Shown here piece by piece: positions 3,166 through 26,190 of a stretch of 33,248 nucleotides of DNA (position 1 is its first letter; each line of letters begins with the position of its first letter). This DNA is from a virus. The notes under the pieces were generated by a model, which did no database searches, had not been told where the DNA came from, and saw nothing but the letters and a program-made list of their open reading frames with translations. The DNA is taken from positions 1-33,248 of IMG/VR virus record IMGVR_UViG_3300027736_000138, one strand, 5' to 3'. Position numbers and translations under genes: made by a program.

Positions 3166-4865
3166 TTAGATTTAGGTAAAAATTCTTGCAATGTATCTTT
3201 TGCTCCTTGATCTAATCCAACACCACCACTTAAAGTAGCTGGAGCTTCGTAAATAGTTGACTTGCTCAAAAGATTTTTATTTAATTTTGTCCATTCATAT
3301 GACTTGCCTTCAACTCCATTAGCATTTACTCTTGCAATTTGCCTATTGGTTATGTAGTCGCTAACATATTTATCGTATTCGGTTTGACTTATTTTCTTTT
3401 CGTCAAAAGCCTTAATAACATCATCTGGCATTCCATTGATTGCTTCAAATGAGTTAAGAAGATTTAAACTAAGGGATTTTGCGATTGTATCCTTTCTTGC
3501 GTTTATTTTAAGTGGAGAAAATCGACCTTCATATCTAGGCCATTCTTTTTCAGTCATTGTTCCAGAAGCTCCTCCAGTTATAGAACTATCTCTTTGCTGT
3601 TTCATTTTTATAAAAGAGTTTTCTCCATTTATTCTTTCATAGAATCCAGCTAATTCTCCTCTTTCTGATGCTGGTAAAGCCTCAGCAAGCAAAGCATTTC
3701 CTGCTGCAAAAATAGGATTATTTGTTCCTGTTGTATCAAGACGTTTAAATGCCTCTTCAGTATTTGCTTGGTTAAGTCTAAATGACTCATTTTTTAACTG
3801 TTCTCCCGCTTTAGCTGCATTTTCAGTTTTTGCACCACCGCCACCTCTTGTAATTTTAAATCCACCTCCAGGAACACTTTCAATTGTTTCTCCAGCTCCT
3901 CCAATATCTGCTCCACTAACCATGAAGCTGCCATCAGCAAGTGGTCTGGCGTTAATTTTAAATCCTTTAATAGCAAGATCTTGAACTTGTTGAGCCGTCA
4001 TTGGAGTTTCGGCTTTGCTGCCTCCAGCGATTGGTCGTCCAAGTGGAACTGGCGCATTTGCATTGCTAGTTCCTACATTTAGTCCAGCTTGAACTTGATT
4101 AGCGGCATTTGTTGGTGCTTTTTGATTCATAACACCTGCTTGCAACCCAGCTTGTACTTGTTGATCTGGCGTTGAAACAACATCTCCAGGAACAACTGGA
4201 ATTTGATTGTAATTCATACTTGCTGGTGGATTTGGAACATTTGGATTTGTTGTTAAATCTGCCAACGAATTATTAGTTAGTGTTCCTCCAGTTCCATTAG
4301 CATATGCATCCATATCTACAATTGGATCTTGATTTAGTGCGCTAAACATATCGCCGGCAGCATTTACCAAAACTGGAACACCTGTTCTTCCTCCAACATC
4401 AATGCTTTTAAGTTCTAATTTTCCAGCGTTAGAACGAGCTTCTGCTTGAGTTGCCAAATTTTGCTGATTATATTTTCCTTGTTGTATATCAAGCTCTCTG
4501 GATTTAAGTCCAAAATCCCTATTCTTATTTGACTGACCAATTGCAAGTTCAATAAGCCCAGGAGTAGCACTAGCACTAGCAAAACGATCATTTAGAGAAA
4601 TATTCTCATCACGAAGATTGTCTAAAATTGGTGCAAATGCTCCTTGCAACTCTGGATACAACTTAATTGCGGCATCAATTTGCGTGGAACTTTGCTTTAG
4701 CAGCTTTTTCTTATCATTCTGATCTTTAAAATAATCAGTTGCAGTTTTTGCAATAGTCTGCCCAAGCCCCGTTATTGCGTTAGCGTTGGTGTTTGCTGCG
4801 TTTACAAACCCAGAGTAGTCCTGTCTAAACAGACTGGGGTCAATTGATGCTCCTAGTAGTGCCAT
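3162..4865 (-). CDS. Internal virion protein candidate (567 aa), gp15 position
   Basis: The N-terminus (MALLGASIDPSLFRQDYSGF) is followed by a long helical region with Asn/Ala/Gln/Lys-rich segments to about residue 165. A low-complexity middle rich in Gly, Ala, Pro, Asn and Gln (about 165-290) follows, with two similar stretches around Q-V-Q-A-G-L, then a helical C-terminal part ending in LPKSK. No catalytic motif or transmembrane segment is seen. The gene lies 4 nt downstream of the 355-residue gene and overlaps the next gene by ATGA. Position between a Gln/Ala-rich 355-residue protein and a 1019-residue protein suggests the middle member of an ejection-protein trio. That assignment is inference; the coding call itself is safe. 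Confidence 0.6.
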   Translation of the reverse strand: MALLGASIDPSLFRQDYSGFVNAANTNANAITGLGQTIAKTATDYFKDQNDKKKLLKQSSTQIDAAIKLYPELQGAFAPILDNLRDENISLNDRFASASATPGLIELAIGQSNKNRDFGLKSRELDIQQGKYNQQNLATQAEARSNAGKLELKSIDVGGRTGVPVLVNAAGDMFSALNQDPIVDMDAYANGTGGTLTNNSLADLTTNPNVPNPPASMNYNQIPVVPGDVVSTPDQQVQAGLQAGVMNQKAPTNAANQVQAGLNVGTSNANAPVPLGRPIAGGSKAETPMTAQQVQDLAIKGFKINARPLADGSFMVSGADIGGAGETIESVPGGGFKITRGGGGAKTENAAKAGEQLKNESFRLNQANTEEAFKRLDTTGTNNPIFAAGNALLAEALPASERGELAGFYERINGENSFIKMKQQRDSSITGGASGTMTEKEWPRYEGRFSPLKINARKDTIAKSLSLNLLNSFEAINGMPDDVIKAFDEKKISQTEYDKYVSDYITNRQIARVNANGVEGKSYEWTKLNKNLLSKSTIYEAPATLSGGVGLDQGAKDTLQEFLPKSK

Positions 4866-22709: not shown

Positions 22710-23111
22710 ATGAATAAAGGATGCATACCAGATATTGAAACCACTGAAAATATGTGGAACGCTTACCAACAAGATAAATCATGCGCTGAAATAGCTAATG
22801 AATTTGGCGTTACTAGGCAGACAGTTTGGAAAAGATTACAACGCAGAAACAAATCACTTCGTCAGTTGGCGAAACTTGAATCCGTTACATTTAATGGCAG
22901 CTTATATACTATGAGAAACAATGGATACCTTGGCAAAACCACAGAAAACCGTTCATACTTACACCGTGATATTTGGGAGTTTTCATTCTTTAAGATACCA
23001 TCTGGATGGGATATTCATCATGTTAACGAAGATAAGACCGATAATCGTGTTGAAAATCTTTGCTTAATTCATAAATCAGCACACACATACCTTCATGGAC
23101 AATTCAAATGA
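22710..23111 (+). CDS. HNH endonuclease with N-terminal HTH (133 aa)
   Basis: Residues 23-45 form an HTH (SCAEIANEFGVTRQTVWKRL). Residues 82-128 form an HNH_3-type nuclease: SYLHRDIWEFSF, then GWDIHHVNEDKTDN, then RVENLCLIHKSAH. His103/His104, Asn112 and His121 are the probable metal and catalytic positions. Free-standing HNH genes of this type are homing endonucleases. Its own promoter and the terminator before it are consistent with a separately acquired unit. The stop overlaps the start of the alternative frame of the methyltransferase by ATGA, and the methyltransferase start lies inside its last 17 bases. Confidence 0.85.
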   Translation: MNKGCIPDIETTENMWNAYQQDKSCAEIANEFGVTRQTVWKRLQRRNKSLRQLAKLESVTFNGSLYTMRNNGYLGKTTENRSYLHRDIWEFSFFKIPSGWDIHHVNEDKTDNRVENLCLIHKSAHTYLHGQFK

Positions 23112-24174
23112 TAACGATCCCATTACAGTTGTTGAATTCTGCGCCGGATACGGAGGTCTTGGACTTGGCATCAAAAGAGTGCTTGGCGAGAGAATGCGAC
23201 TCATCGGACTTTGTGAACTTGAGGGGTTCGCCCAAGCAAATCTCATCAGTAAGATGGAAGCAGGACTCATGGCACAAGTTCCTATTTGGTCGAATCTGCT
23301 TGCCTTCCCATACAGAAAGTTTCGAGGACTTGTGGATTTTGCAGTTGCGGGAATCCCTTGCCAACCGCATAGCCTTGCAGGAAAACGAAAAGGAGGAGGT
23401 GATGAGCGATTCCTCTTTGACGATTGGTTGCGAGGACTTGAGCAAATGCAACCTAGATACATCCTTATTGAGAATGTTGAAGGATTGCTCTCAAGTAAGA
23501 TGCCAGACGGAACTCTTTGCATTGCCTGGACAATTGAGAGATTGGAAGCAATGGGTTACAAAGCTACGGCAGGAATATTCAGTGCGCGTGAAGTCGGCGC
23601 ACCTCACCAGAGAAAGCGTGTGTTCATCATGGCCTACCGTAACTGCGAACGAGGACAGCTACCGAATTGGTGGAGAGAGTCAGCAGAGCAGGTGCTTGTC
23701 AGCGATGGCGAGAAGAGGCGAGCTTGGCCAAGCCGCCCCAGTCAACCCCAGTACGGATGGGAGCCGCCAAGAGTCGTGGGCGACACCCAGCACAATGGAT
23801 CACATCAATGTGGTGCGGATGCCACAGGAGCGGAGTCCGGCGGCGAACAAGGGGGGTTGCAAGAATCTGAGGGAGGAAGTCCATCAGTGGCCAACCATCT
23901 GTGCAGGGGATTACAGGACACCTCCAACAAACAGCGGTACAACGGGACAGACAATCATGCCGGCATCGGAACACGCCCTACCGAAAGCAGCAGGCGGCAA
24001 ACTCAACCCCCGCTGGGTGGAAACCCTCATGGGACTGCCTGTGGGATGGACTATGCCGAGTTGTGCATCTCCTGTGACAATCGTACCGACGAACTGCGAC
24101 TGCTTGGAAACGGAGTCGTACCCGCAACAGCAGAACGAGCATTCAGAACTCTTTTAGCCGAACTAATACCATGA
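23095..24174 (+). CDS. Cytosine-C5 DNA methyltransferase, Dcm type (359 aa)
   Basis: Conserved motifs of the C5-methyltransferase family are present in order: motif I FCAGYGGLGLG (15-25) for S-adenosylmethionine, motif IV AGIPCQPHS (85-93) with the catalytic Cys89, motif VI IENVEGLL (125-132), motif VIII QRKRVF (172-177) and motif X LLGNGVVPATA (336-346). Residues 185-325 form a variable, Gly/Ser/Asn-rich region where the target recognition domain should be. It probably protects phage DNA from host restriction. The start ATG lies within the HNH gene end. Nearly the whole length is also open in the +1 frame (see 23108-24157), so this gene may be dual coding. Stop overlaps the next start by ATGA. 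Confidence 0.85.
   Translation: MDNSNDNDPITVVEFCAGYGGLGLGIKRVLGERMRLIGLCELEGFAQANLISKMEAGLMAQVPIWSNLLAFPYRKFRGLVDFAVAGIPCQPHSLAGKRKGGGDERFLFDDWLRGLEQMQPRYILIENVEGLLSSKMPDGTLCIAWTIERLEAMGYKATAGIFSAREVGAPHQRKRVFIMAYRNCERGQLPNWWRESAEQVLVSDGEKRRAWPSRPSQPQYGWEPPRVVGDTQHNGSHQCGADATGAESGGEQGGLQESEGGSPSVANHLCRGLQDTSNKQRYNGTDNHAGIGTRPTESSRRQTQPPLGGNPHGTACGMDYAELCISCDNRTDELRLLGNGVVPATAERAFRTLLAELIP
23108..24157 (+). CDS. Candidate overprinted protein in the methyltransferase's +1 frame (349 aa)
   Basis: The frame starts with ATG at 23108 in an ATGA overlap with the HNH stop, the junction type used throughout this operon, and stays open for 349 codons, ending 17 bp before the methyltransferase stop. 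Random sequence would give about 16 stops. The product is Ser-, Gln- and Cys-rich. It has recurring W-(P/A)-T motifs: SSWPTVTANED (173-183), SWATPSTMDH (223-232), HQWPTICAGDY (259-269), then LNPRWVETLMGLPVGW (299-314). I recognise the last motif and the WPT pattern from the C-terminal parts of phage proteins tied to cytosine methyltransferases. So the frame may be a real second product, or hold a recognition domain displaced from the main frame. Translation is not proven. Confidence 0.45.
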   Translation: MITIPLQLLNSAPDTEVLDLASKECLARECDSSDFVNLRGSPKQISSVRWKQDSWHKFLFGRICLPSHTESFEDLWILQLRESLANRIALQENEKEEVMSDSSLTIGCEDLSKCNLDTSLLRMLKDCSQVRCQTELFALPGQLRDWKQWVTKLRQEYSVRVKSAHLTRESVCSSWPTVTANEDSYRIGGESQQSRCLSAMARRGELGQAAPVNPSTDGSRQESWATPSTMDHINVVRMPQERSPAANKGGCKNLREEVHQWPTICAGDYRTPPTNSGTTGQTIMPASEHALPKAAGGKLNPRWVETLMGLPVGWTMPSCASPVTIVPTNCDCLETESYPQQQNEHSELF

Positions 24175-24621: not shown

Positions 24622-25350
24622 TTATAAAATCCCTTGTGGCGAGATCCAATCGCTACCTTCTTTTGTTACGTTCCAAGCGTTCCAAGCCCCAGTTTTATCG
24701 TTGATCAAACCGTAAAGGAAACCATTACGCCATGATAACTTCGCGGCATGACGGTCTGCGTAAGTCAGTGCGTCGATATTTGCCATGCAACCTAGGCTAA
24801 ATGCCTGTGAGCCATCAATGTGCCTTGCCGAGTAGATATCTGGCTTATGGACATGACCAACTAGGCAACTACCCCAGTTTTCGTAGTGCGATCTGGCAGG
24901 GTACATCGTAGCGCGGAATCCGTGTAGCAGTTTAGGGCCGCCCTCTGGCATTTGCAGGTACTTTGAAACATGGTACGAACACCATGTAATTTTACGTTTT
25001 TTGAATTGCTCCTCAGAGTGTTTTACCAACTCCGCACACCGCTCTTGTAGGATGCCGTCACCGCTGTTCATGCCTAGCCAGATACGATCATCGTGGTTGC
25101 CGAGGGTCAGGTAATTCGGCTTGAACGCATCAAGGAATGTCATCCCAGCAAGGTAATCCATAGAGATACCTTCAGCACGATCTTCTGGCGAAGCACCTTT
25201 CCGCAATGGCGAGAAATCCCACAAGTCACCCAAATGAATGCGGTAATGTGGCTTCCAACTATCAGCAAAAGCCATGAGTTTGATCATAGCGTCAGCATCG
25301 ACCAAATGACCATGATTATCGGCGCAGACTAGGAATCGTTTATATGCCAT
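24622..25350 (-). CDS. Calcineurin-like metallophosphoesterase (242 aa)
   Basis: The five metal-binding blocks of the family are present: ADNHGH (10-15), HLGDLWD (39-45), LGNHDDR (83-89), LLHG (141-144) and VGHVHKPD (164-171). Asn12 stands where most family members have Asp-x-His, so metal site 1 uses Asp11 and His13. Enzymes of this type cleave phosphomono- or diesters; in phages they may act on DNA ends or nucleotides. The start overlaps the SprT-like gene by 11 nt. Substrate unknown. Confidence 0.85.
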   Translation of the reverse strand: MAYKRFLVCADNHGHLVDADAMIKLMAFADSWKPHYRIHLGDLWDFSPLRKGASPEDRAEGISMDYLAGMTFLDAFKPNYLTLGNHDDRIWLGMNSGDGILQERCAELVKHSEEQFKKRKITWCSYHVSKYLQMPEGGPKLLHGFRATMYPARSHYENWGSCLVGHVHKPDIYSARHIDGSQAFSLGCMANIDALTYADRHAAKLSWRNGFLYGLINDKTGAWNAWNVTKEGSDWISPQGIL

Positions 25351-25630
25351 GCTTTTTAGTTAGGTTGTCCCACGCTGGGAAGAACATATTCTCAAGACAC
25401 CGTATAAGTGCCTCCTCGTCGTAGTTCTCCGCCCAAGAATGTCCCGCTAGTGCGAGTGTGGCATGAATCATCTCATGCCTTAAAGTTTCAATAGCGACTA
25501 AGTTATCCTTTATAGAAGTCGAAATGGTGATCTCGCGCACCTCAAAATCCATCTCACCATATGCCTCAATTTTAGTACGTTTTACCCTGAAAGTAACGCC
25601 ACCAATCGTTACCTTTTTGGGAAGTACCAT
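25340..25630 (-). CDS. SprT-like putative zinc metallopeptidase (96 aa)
   Basis: A zincin motif RHEMIHATLALAG gives HExxH at 52-56 (His52, Glu53, His56). N-terminal strands (KKVTIGGVTFRVKRTKI) and a helix with EEALIRCLENMFFPAW follow, the general plan of short phage SprT-like proteins. A third ligand is not clear; Glu72 or Glu73 are candidates. It is placed between the endolysin and the phosphoesterase. Start shares one base with the endolysin stop (TAATG). Substrate unknown. Confidence 0.7.
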   Translation of the reverse strand: MVLPKKVTIGGVTFRVKRTKIEAYGEMDFEVREITISTSIKDNLVAIETLRHEMIHATLALAGHSWAENYDEEALIRCLENMFFPAWDNLTKKHGI

Positions 25631-26190
25631 TAAGTTGTAGCTTGGTGATGCATCGAATCGCGACCCCAGAAAACACCTGCGGATAGGAATCCTTCGCGTG
25701 AGAACGCCTCGATCACCTTAAAGGGCATATCAGCCGATACAGGCCAATGCTGGTGGTTAGCGTTGGTATCTGCACGGAAGTCCACAGCAGCACCGTATGC
25801 GTGTAAGGAAGGCTTATTAAGCCCCCTCATGGGGCGATTGTTGTACGCCCCACAGTATTCCCGTAAAGTCTCTGGCGAGACGATGGCGACCTCTTCTAGC
25901 ACCCTTCTGAGGGCAGCAGCGATCCTGTTGTGTACACGCATAGTTTTAACTTTACTACCTTCATACTGCACATCCAAGTCGCCAACGAATAAGTTGACCA
26001 ATCTGTCCTCGTTGCCGTGCATACCAAAGAATCCAATCAATGCCGCTTCAGACTGTGCTGGCCACGGGTTAGGTATTGGCATCAATCGGCGGCAATGACG
26101 TTGGCAAGCCTCGATGGATTTAGCGCCCCAGAAACCATCTGGGACAACGCCAATCTTGTGCTGGATCTCAATGATGGCTTCGCGTTTCAT
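25630..26190 (-). CDS. M15-family peptidoglycan peptidase, endolysin (186 aa)
   Basis: The N-terminus (IIEIQHKIGVVPDGFWGAKS, 6-25) resembles a small peptidoglycan-binding repeat. The M15 zinc site is clear: SLHAYGAAVD (128-137) fits S-x-H-x2-G-x-A-x-D with His130 and Asp137, and RDSMHHQ (177-183) supplies Asp178 and His181. Such enzymes cut peptide cross-links (L-Ala-D-Glu or D-Ala-D-Ala type). It is followed upstream by small membrane proteins, so this is the lysis module. No signal peptide is seen, so export would need a holin. Confidence 0.85.
   Translation of the reverse strand: MKREAIIEIQHKIGVVPDGFWGAKSIEACQRHCRRLMPIPNPWPAQSEAALIGFFGMHGNEDRLVNLFVGDLDVQYEGSKVKTMRVHNRIAAALRRVLEEVAIVSPETLREYCGAYNNRPMRGLNKPSLHAYGAAVDFRADTNANHQHWPVSADMPFKVIEAFSREGFLSAGVFWGRDSMHHQATT

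Follow-up and report, generated by a model that had tools for sequence, protein, structure and literature searches.

Long same-strand overlaps between genes are considered rare in bacteria and phages, and most annotation pipelines disfavour them. Among C5-cytosine DNA methyltransferases, M.EcoHK31I (YGGCCR) is reportedly a case in which a small ORF lies within the large one in another frame; its beta polypeptide, of ~176 aa, starts inside the gene. M.EcoHK31I is described as two polypeptides, a large one with motifs I-VIII, motif X and a predicted recognition domain, and a small one with motif IX (PMC3404938, citing Lee, Kam and Shaw 1995). In M.AquI (CYCGRG), the small subunit carries motifs IX and X (PMC3404938). 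The ShiLan domain is an HNH endonuclease encoded out of frame within a phage methylase (PMC11855218). For overlapping frames in C5-methyltransferases, the open-access literature yielded only the M.EcoHK31I mentions and the ShiLan paper, and no description of family-wide double coding was found in that literature.

The locus reported here belongs to the window, the whole 33,248-nucleotide stretch of viral DNA analysed. Like M.EcoHK31I, it has a large polypeptide (alpha) with motifs I-VIII and X and, as is said of that enzyme, a second ORF (beta) inside the first in another frame. It differs in the length of the overlap, since beta covers 349 of the 359 alpha codons, against the ~176 aa of the M.EcoHK31I beta. 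It also differs in that its conserved recognition-region sequence is in beta, whereas the predicted recognition domain of M.EcoHK31I is assigned to the large subunit (PMC3404938). Following that description, the window locus is best filed with the M.EcoHK31I-type enzymes; the E. coli and plasmid collections searched contained no recognisable annotated EcoHK31I sequence. The likeness to M.AquI consists in a second polypeptide that would carry the recognition region and, putatively, motif IX, but motif X of the window is in the alpha frame and both ORFs share DNA, so an M.AquI-type split was rejected for this locus.

Two phage systems are also close. Proteins Diva gp50, Redbud gp51 and Lily gp63 of Paenibacillus larvae phages belong to the same overlapping beta family, each as an 'internal gene' of the methyltransferase. 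They are shorter than the window beta and start internally, at 184 nt of the gene, and annotators gave them no function of their own; the passages found of an overview paper on P. larvae phages contain no discussion of this 'internal gene'. The ShiLan domain resembles beta in being read from a different frame of a phage DNA methylase (PMC11855218), but it is a mobile HNH insertion of patchy distribution, whereas beta is family-wide and overlaps conserved catalytic motifs. A ShiLan-type hidden HNH was rejected for beta, which has no HNH match in Pfam or PHROGs.

Taken globally, our sequence comparisons strongly support the translation of two proteins from this one DNA, and we consider it probable that alpha and beta would together make up an m5C methyltransferase of two polypeptides, like M.EcoHK31I, in which beta would be the recognition subunit. 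The sequence-only reading of the window had offered a choice between one stretch encoding two proteins and the shift of a recognition domain out of frame; the comparisons support both at once. The coordinates and lengths of the two open frames were re-derived and agree with that reading (Table 1).

Table 1. Features of the methyltransferase locus in the window, with the evidence or conservation of each.
Feature	Position	Strand	Evidence or conservation
HNH endonuclease	22710-23111	+	PF13392 E=2.1e-13; phrog_7545
alpha, C5-cytosine DNA methyltransferase frame, 359 aa, motifs I-VIII and X	23095..24174	+	PF00145, phrog_363, AF2/Foldseek
alpha motif I (VVEFCAGYGG)	23128..23157	+	G18, G21 invariant (alignment A2)
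alpha motif IV (GIPCQPHSLAGKR), catalytic Cys 89	23350..23388	+	P88, C89, Q90 invariant
alpha motif VI (ENVEG)	23470..23484	+	E126, N127, V128 invariant
alpha motif VIII (QRKRVFI)	23608..23628	+	R173, R175 invariant
alpha WPSRPSQPQYGWEPPRV, main-frame element conserved past motif VIII	23725..23775	+	alpha consensus
alpha motif X (LRLLGNGVVPATAERAFRTLL)	24094..24156	+	G338, N339 invariant
beta, +1-frame protein, 349 aa	23108..24157	+	phrog_1008; open and conserved among relatives
beta WPTVTANED, first WPTP-type element	23630..23656	+	conserved in beta alignment
beta WATPSTMDH module	23777..23803	+	T226, P227 at least 90% conserved
beta WPTICAGDY element	23888..23914	+	T263 at least 90% conserved
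beta LNPRWVETLMGLPVGW, element at the C5-methyltransferase motif IX position	24002..24049	+	most conserved part of beta

Alpha is readily recognised as the catalytic subunit. Residues 11-186 match PF00145 (E=4.3e-28, 99.1 bits against a cut-off of 22) with motifs I, IV, VI and VIII present, and the protein also matches PHROG phrog_363 (E=3.5e-48). The AF2 model has pLDDT mostly above 90 up to ~residue 180, covering the catalytic part, is also confident in the region of the motif X helix, and retrieves M.HhaI and M.HaeIII in Foldseek (E ~1e-13). Residues 211-321 have pLDDT below 50, with values of 32-43 between the catalytic part and motif X, and the model predicts a disordered linker between motifs VIII and X. 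Several truncated alphas (L069, L167, L172, L177) retain the WPSRPSQPQYGWEPPRV element as their C-terminal part.

Beta gave nothing above the cut-off in Pfam and nothing in NCBIfam, and residues 72-315 match phrog_1008 ('DNA methyltransferase', E=4.7e-15). With this match, the motifs that the sequence-only reading had linked to phage methyltransferase-associated proteins prove to belong to a real conserved family. The same profile matches beta together with motif X of the other frame, consistent with a profile that includes split-type proteins. The beta alignment shows a family signature of WPTP-type repeats, the WATPSTMDH module and LNPxWVExLMGxPxGW, while the N-terminal half, overlapping the catalytic motifs, is weakly conserved in sequence.

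The LNPxWVExLMGxPxGW element sits 20-35 residues N-terminal of motif X, the usual place of motif IX, and by eye it looks like motif IX (M.HhaI: LHPRECARVMGYPDSY, sequence verified). Across the dual-frame loci, this pattern and position are found in beta only and not in alpha; motif-IX-type matches of at least 15 bits fall 275 times in frame +1 and 9 times in other frames, with none elsewhere on the forward strand. A shuffle test of the motif IX profile did not give convincing homology for the element, and hhalign aligned motif X alone; no profile comparison gave a significant match to motif IX of M.HhaI or M.HaeIII. The beta alignment (A5) found no match in the PDB at E up to 10, natural split betas scanned with Pfam showed no PF00145 match, and an alpha/beta chimera spans the whole PF00145 model with a gain of merely 0.5 bits. 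Modelled alone by AF2, beta has a mean pLDDT of 52, too poor for a fold search, so the model displays no recognition fold; the poor model may reflect a shallow alignment, or a protein that folds solely with alpha and DNA.

To place the locus among its relatives, viral contigs were searched with the beta protein (39 loci), the methyltransferase protein (11), the methyltransferase alignment (best 80 of 566) and a fused relative (80 loci), and 80 loci were kept of 246 from bacterial and archaeal genomes. Each locus was assigned to a class with three profiles, one built for the catalytic part (CAT), one for the LNPxWVExLMG element (IX) and one for motif X (X). Phages with the alpha-beta pair include Lacticaseibacillus phages R23.9 and Lc-Nu. 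Across all samples, both frames are open in 256 related loci from viruses, bacteria and a few archaeal MAGs, and the stops throughout the second frame that would have spoken against the sequence-only reading did not appear. The loci found with the methyltransferase alignment were chosen by their catalytic motifs and not by beta; 76 of these 80 viral loci (the best 80 of 566) could be classified, and the LNPxWVExLMG element lies in frame +1 in 76/76. Alpha is open to motif X in 70 of them, motif X is in the beta frame in 4, and alpha is interrupted in 2. Since this sample holds the window's nearest relatives, the claim covers its clade and not all C5-methyltransferases. Over 189 dual-frame loci, the catalytic domain and the element are separated by anything between 88 and 1156 nt, yet by 1 mod 3 without exception; the median overlap of alpha and beta is 308 codons and the longest is 577.

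The beta starts have properties of their own. In 51% of 188 loci, the first beta ATG follows a Shine-Dalgarno core of four bases or more; among 608 later in-frame ATGs the share is 10%. In one class, beta begins where alpha begins, in many cases at ATGTG, an overlap of the beta ATG and the alpha GTG seen in 58 loci; in 32/58 of these, the 90 nt upstream hold no alternative start for alpha. The two starts of ATGTG are two bases apart and share one ribosome site (examples are L001, L003, L004, L007, L012, L014, L063, L151, L152, L156, L159, L160 and others). In a second class, beta begins ~120-190 nt within alpha (for example L029, L032, L053).

In the window itself, the alpha ATG is 13 nt ahead of the beta ATG, and the beta ATG and the HNH stop share ATGA, just as the sequence-only reading had described this junction; at the other end, beta stops inside alpha motif X. 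A clear Shine-Dalgarno sequence was found for neither the alpha nor the beta start of the window, so the coupling of beta to the HNH stop is something we infer, and translational coupling of the window starts to that stop is plausible. The 3' end of the HNH gene overlaps the start of alpha, its stop overlapping the beta ATG, and this neighbour of the methyltransferase is possibly a mobile gene.

The second frame might be open by chance or composition and untranslated: one such frame in a single gene could be luck, and the GC content here, 50.7%, is moderately high. The figure of about 16 expected second-frame stops given by the sequence-only reading is too high because it took no account of how the main frame is constrained; the average over synonymous shuffles is 6.7 for the main ORF. 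The window (L051) has 2 alternative-frame stops over the main ORF, both outside beta, and 0/500 synonymous shuffles of its methyltransferase matched the open run length of beta. The +2 frame of full-length loci contains 7-48 stops. In 36 loci, the beta frame of the catalytic part has 0 stops against 100 expected when the alpha protein is kept, and the alpha frame past motif VIII has 0 stops against 271 expected when the beta protein is kept. This count left out visibly broken alphas, loci truncated at the end of a contig, and near-duplicates (L002, L021-L023, L050, L058, L061 and others), as well as seven further loci without a motif VIII match. Shuffles and stop counts, together with the Shine-Dalgarno enrichment and the codon-position signature described below, refute chance openness, whose probability we regard as negligible.

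Selective constraint was then compared between the two parts of the gene. Since close-pair scores are inflated in other frames by shared ancestry, the distant pairs are those to read. Against shuffles, distant pairs have a median z of 10.9 for alpha and 1.6 for beta in the catalytic part, and of 7.7 for beta and 1.8 for alpha in the recognition part past motif VIII. Kinship alone, which raises other frames too in close pairs, was rejected as the cause of beta conservation with these distant-pair and region-wise tests. Codon positions give the same picture: over 110 independent close pairs, alpha position 3 accounts for 50% of the differences within the catalytic part and position 1 for 30%, while past motif VIII they distribute as 48/27/24% over alpha positions 1/2/3 (46/26/28% in an alpha-codon alignment), so that the wobble there is position 3 of beta. 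Constraint is thus divided, with alpha holding motifs I-VIII and X and beta the region between.

Such a division fits exactly a single polypeptide made by two programmed frameshifts, from alpha (I-VIII) into beta (recognition) and back to alpha (X), and single-frame fusions of this order do exist. However, this scheme needs neither an alpha frame open in the recognition part nor a beta frame open in the catalytic part, and both are open. It is also at odds with the synonymous divergence of alpha in the class with internal beta starts, where third-position divergence per codon is 0.50 ahead of the beta ATG, 0.30 behind it and 0.45 in motif X, at or past the beta stop. Suppression thus starts at the beta ATG and ends at the beta stop, the boundaries predicted by the beta ORF; the synonymous check proposed in the sequence-only reading comes out in its favour, and main-frame variation is not normal over the overlap. 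With Shine-Dalgarno sites at beta starts and beta as a separate ORF in split relatives, we regard the double frameshift as very unlikely.

Natural rearrangements locate the module within the enzyme. In two fusions, one viral (L223) and one from a Pelosinus MAG (L130), a single frame holds motifs I-VIII, WPTP, the element at the motif IX position (LNPDWVECLMGFP, LNPDWVECLMGFPIGW) and motif X; the two are independent records, 70% identical, and L224 is also classified as fused. In the split loci (L121, L112, L129, L093, L069, L167, L177, L225, L279 and others), alpha stops at or shortly past motif VIII and beta holds the recognition region and motif X; L121, L112, L129 and L177 show the M.AquI motif layout. 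Fusions and splits together indicate that the module is part of the enzyme, placed between VIII and X, and the natural fusion is a stronger argument than the resemblance to motif IX.

The same rearrangements bear on the possibility that beta is real but serves a function unrelated to the methyltransferase, such as counter-defence or regulation, as a mere overprint. Its own start, the weakly conserved N-terminal half and the missing Pfam domain would agree with this. Nevertheless, the module is fused between VIII and X in L130 and L223, is joined to X in the splits, occupies the same place in 76/76 classifiable relatives and faces a stretch of alpha with no folded region in AF2. An unrelated function is therefore unlikely.

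A few copies are broken. In L021, L022 and L023, alpha is broken past motif VIII, beta runs uninterrupted through 350 codons and motif X is still in the alpha frame, which suggests a decaying or variant form. In E. coli PCP07014 (L303, 1500-2261), a prophage methyltransferase is annotated as a pseudogene with an internal stop; its LNP-type element and motif X are in different frames, and both ORFs are cut. In L050, both frames shift together near 3285, consistent with one indel or an assembly error. The interrupted alphas of L021-L023 and L303 are what one would expect of a relic, an inactive enzyme whose recognition domain slipped out of frame and whose frames have so far not decayed. Against this, the arrangement is retained across viruses and many bacterial phyla with both frames strongly constrained, and interrupted copies are few among the classified loci, which makes a relic highly improbable.

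Mechanistically, in the two-subunit enzyme, alpha (359 aa) would act as the catalytic subunit with motifs I-VIII and X and a disordered linker between VIII and X. Beta (349 aa), encoded one base out of step, would bring the WPTP repeats and LNPRWVETLMGLPVGW to the position of the recognition domain and motif IX. By analogy with M.EcoHK31I, the two would most likely combine to form a single m5C methyltransferase with sequence specificity. We infer that both proteins would be expressed in the phage, that alpha would bind beta and that beta would set the specificity, and the enzyme could then mark phage DNA against host restriction.

Extending this to the relatives, a large clade of phage and bacterial C5-methyltransferases probably encodes its recognition module one base out of frame with the catalytic gene; the overlap would typically span 250-570 codons, in many cases with ATGTG starts. 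Enzyme and specificity subunit would then come from the same DNA, and the in-frame and split forms would be derived or intermediate. What looks new is the generality and length of the double coding: a common enzyme family seems to double-code throughout, and consequently one subunit would usually be absent or mislabelled in databases. Cloning or prediction from the annotated gene alone would yield a catalytic subunit without its recognition part. The family is also a large natural data set on two proteins sharing one sequence, and its fused and split forms show evolutionary routes between architectures.

Downstream of the methyltransferase, the opposite strand (24625-26190, -) carries a calcineurin-like phosphoesterase (24625-25350), a weak SprT-like match (25343-25630, -) and an M15-type peptidase (25633-26190, -).
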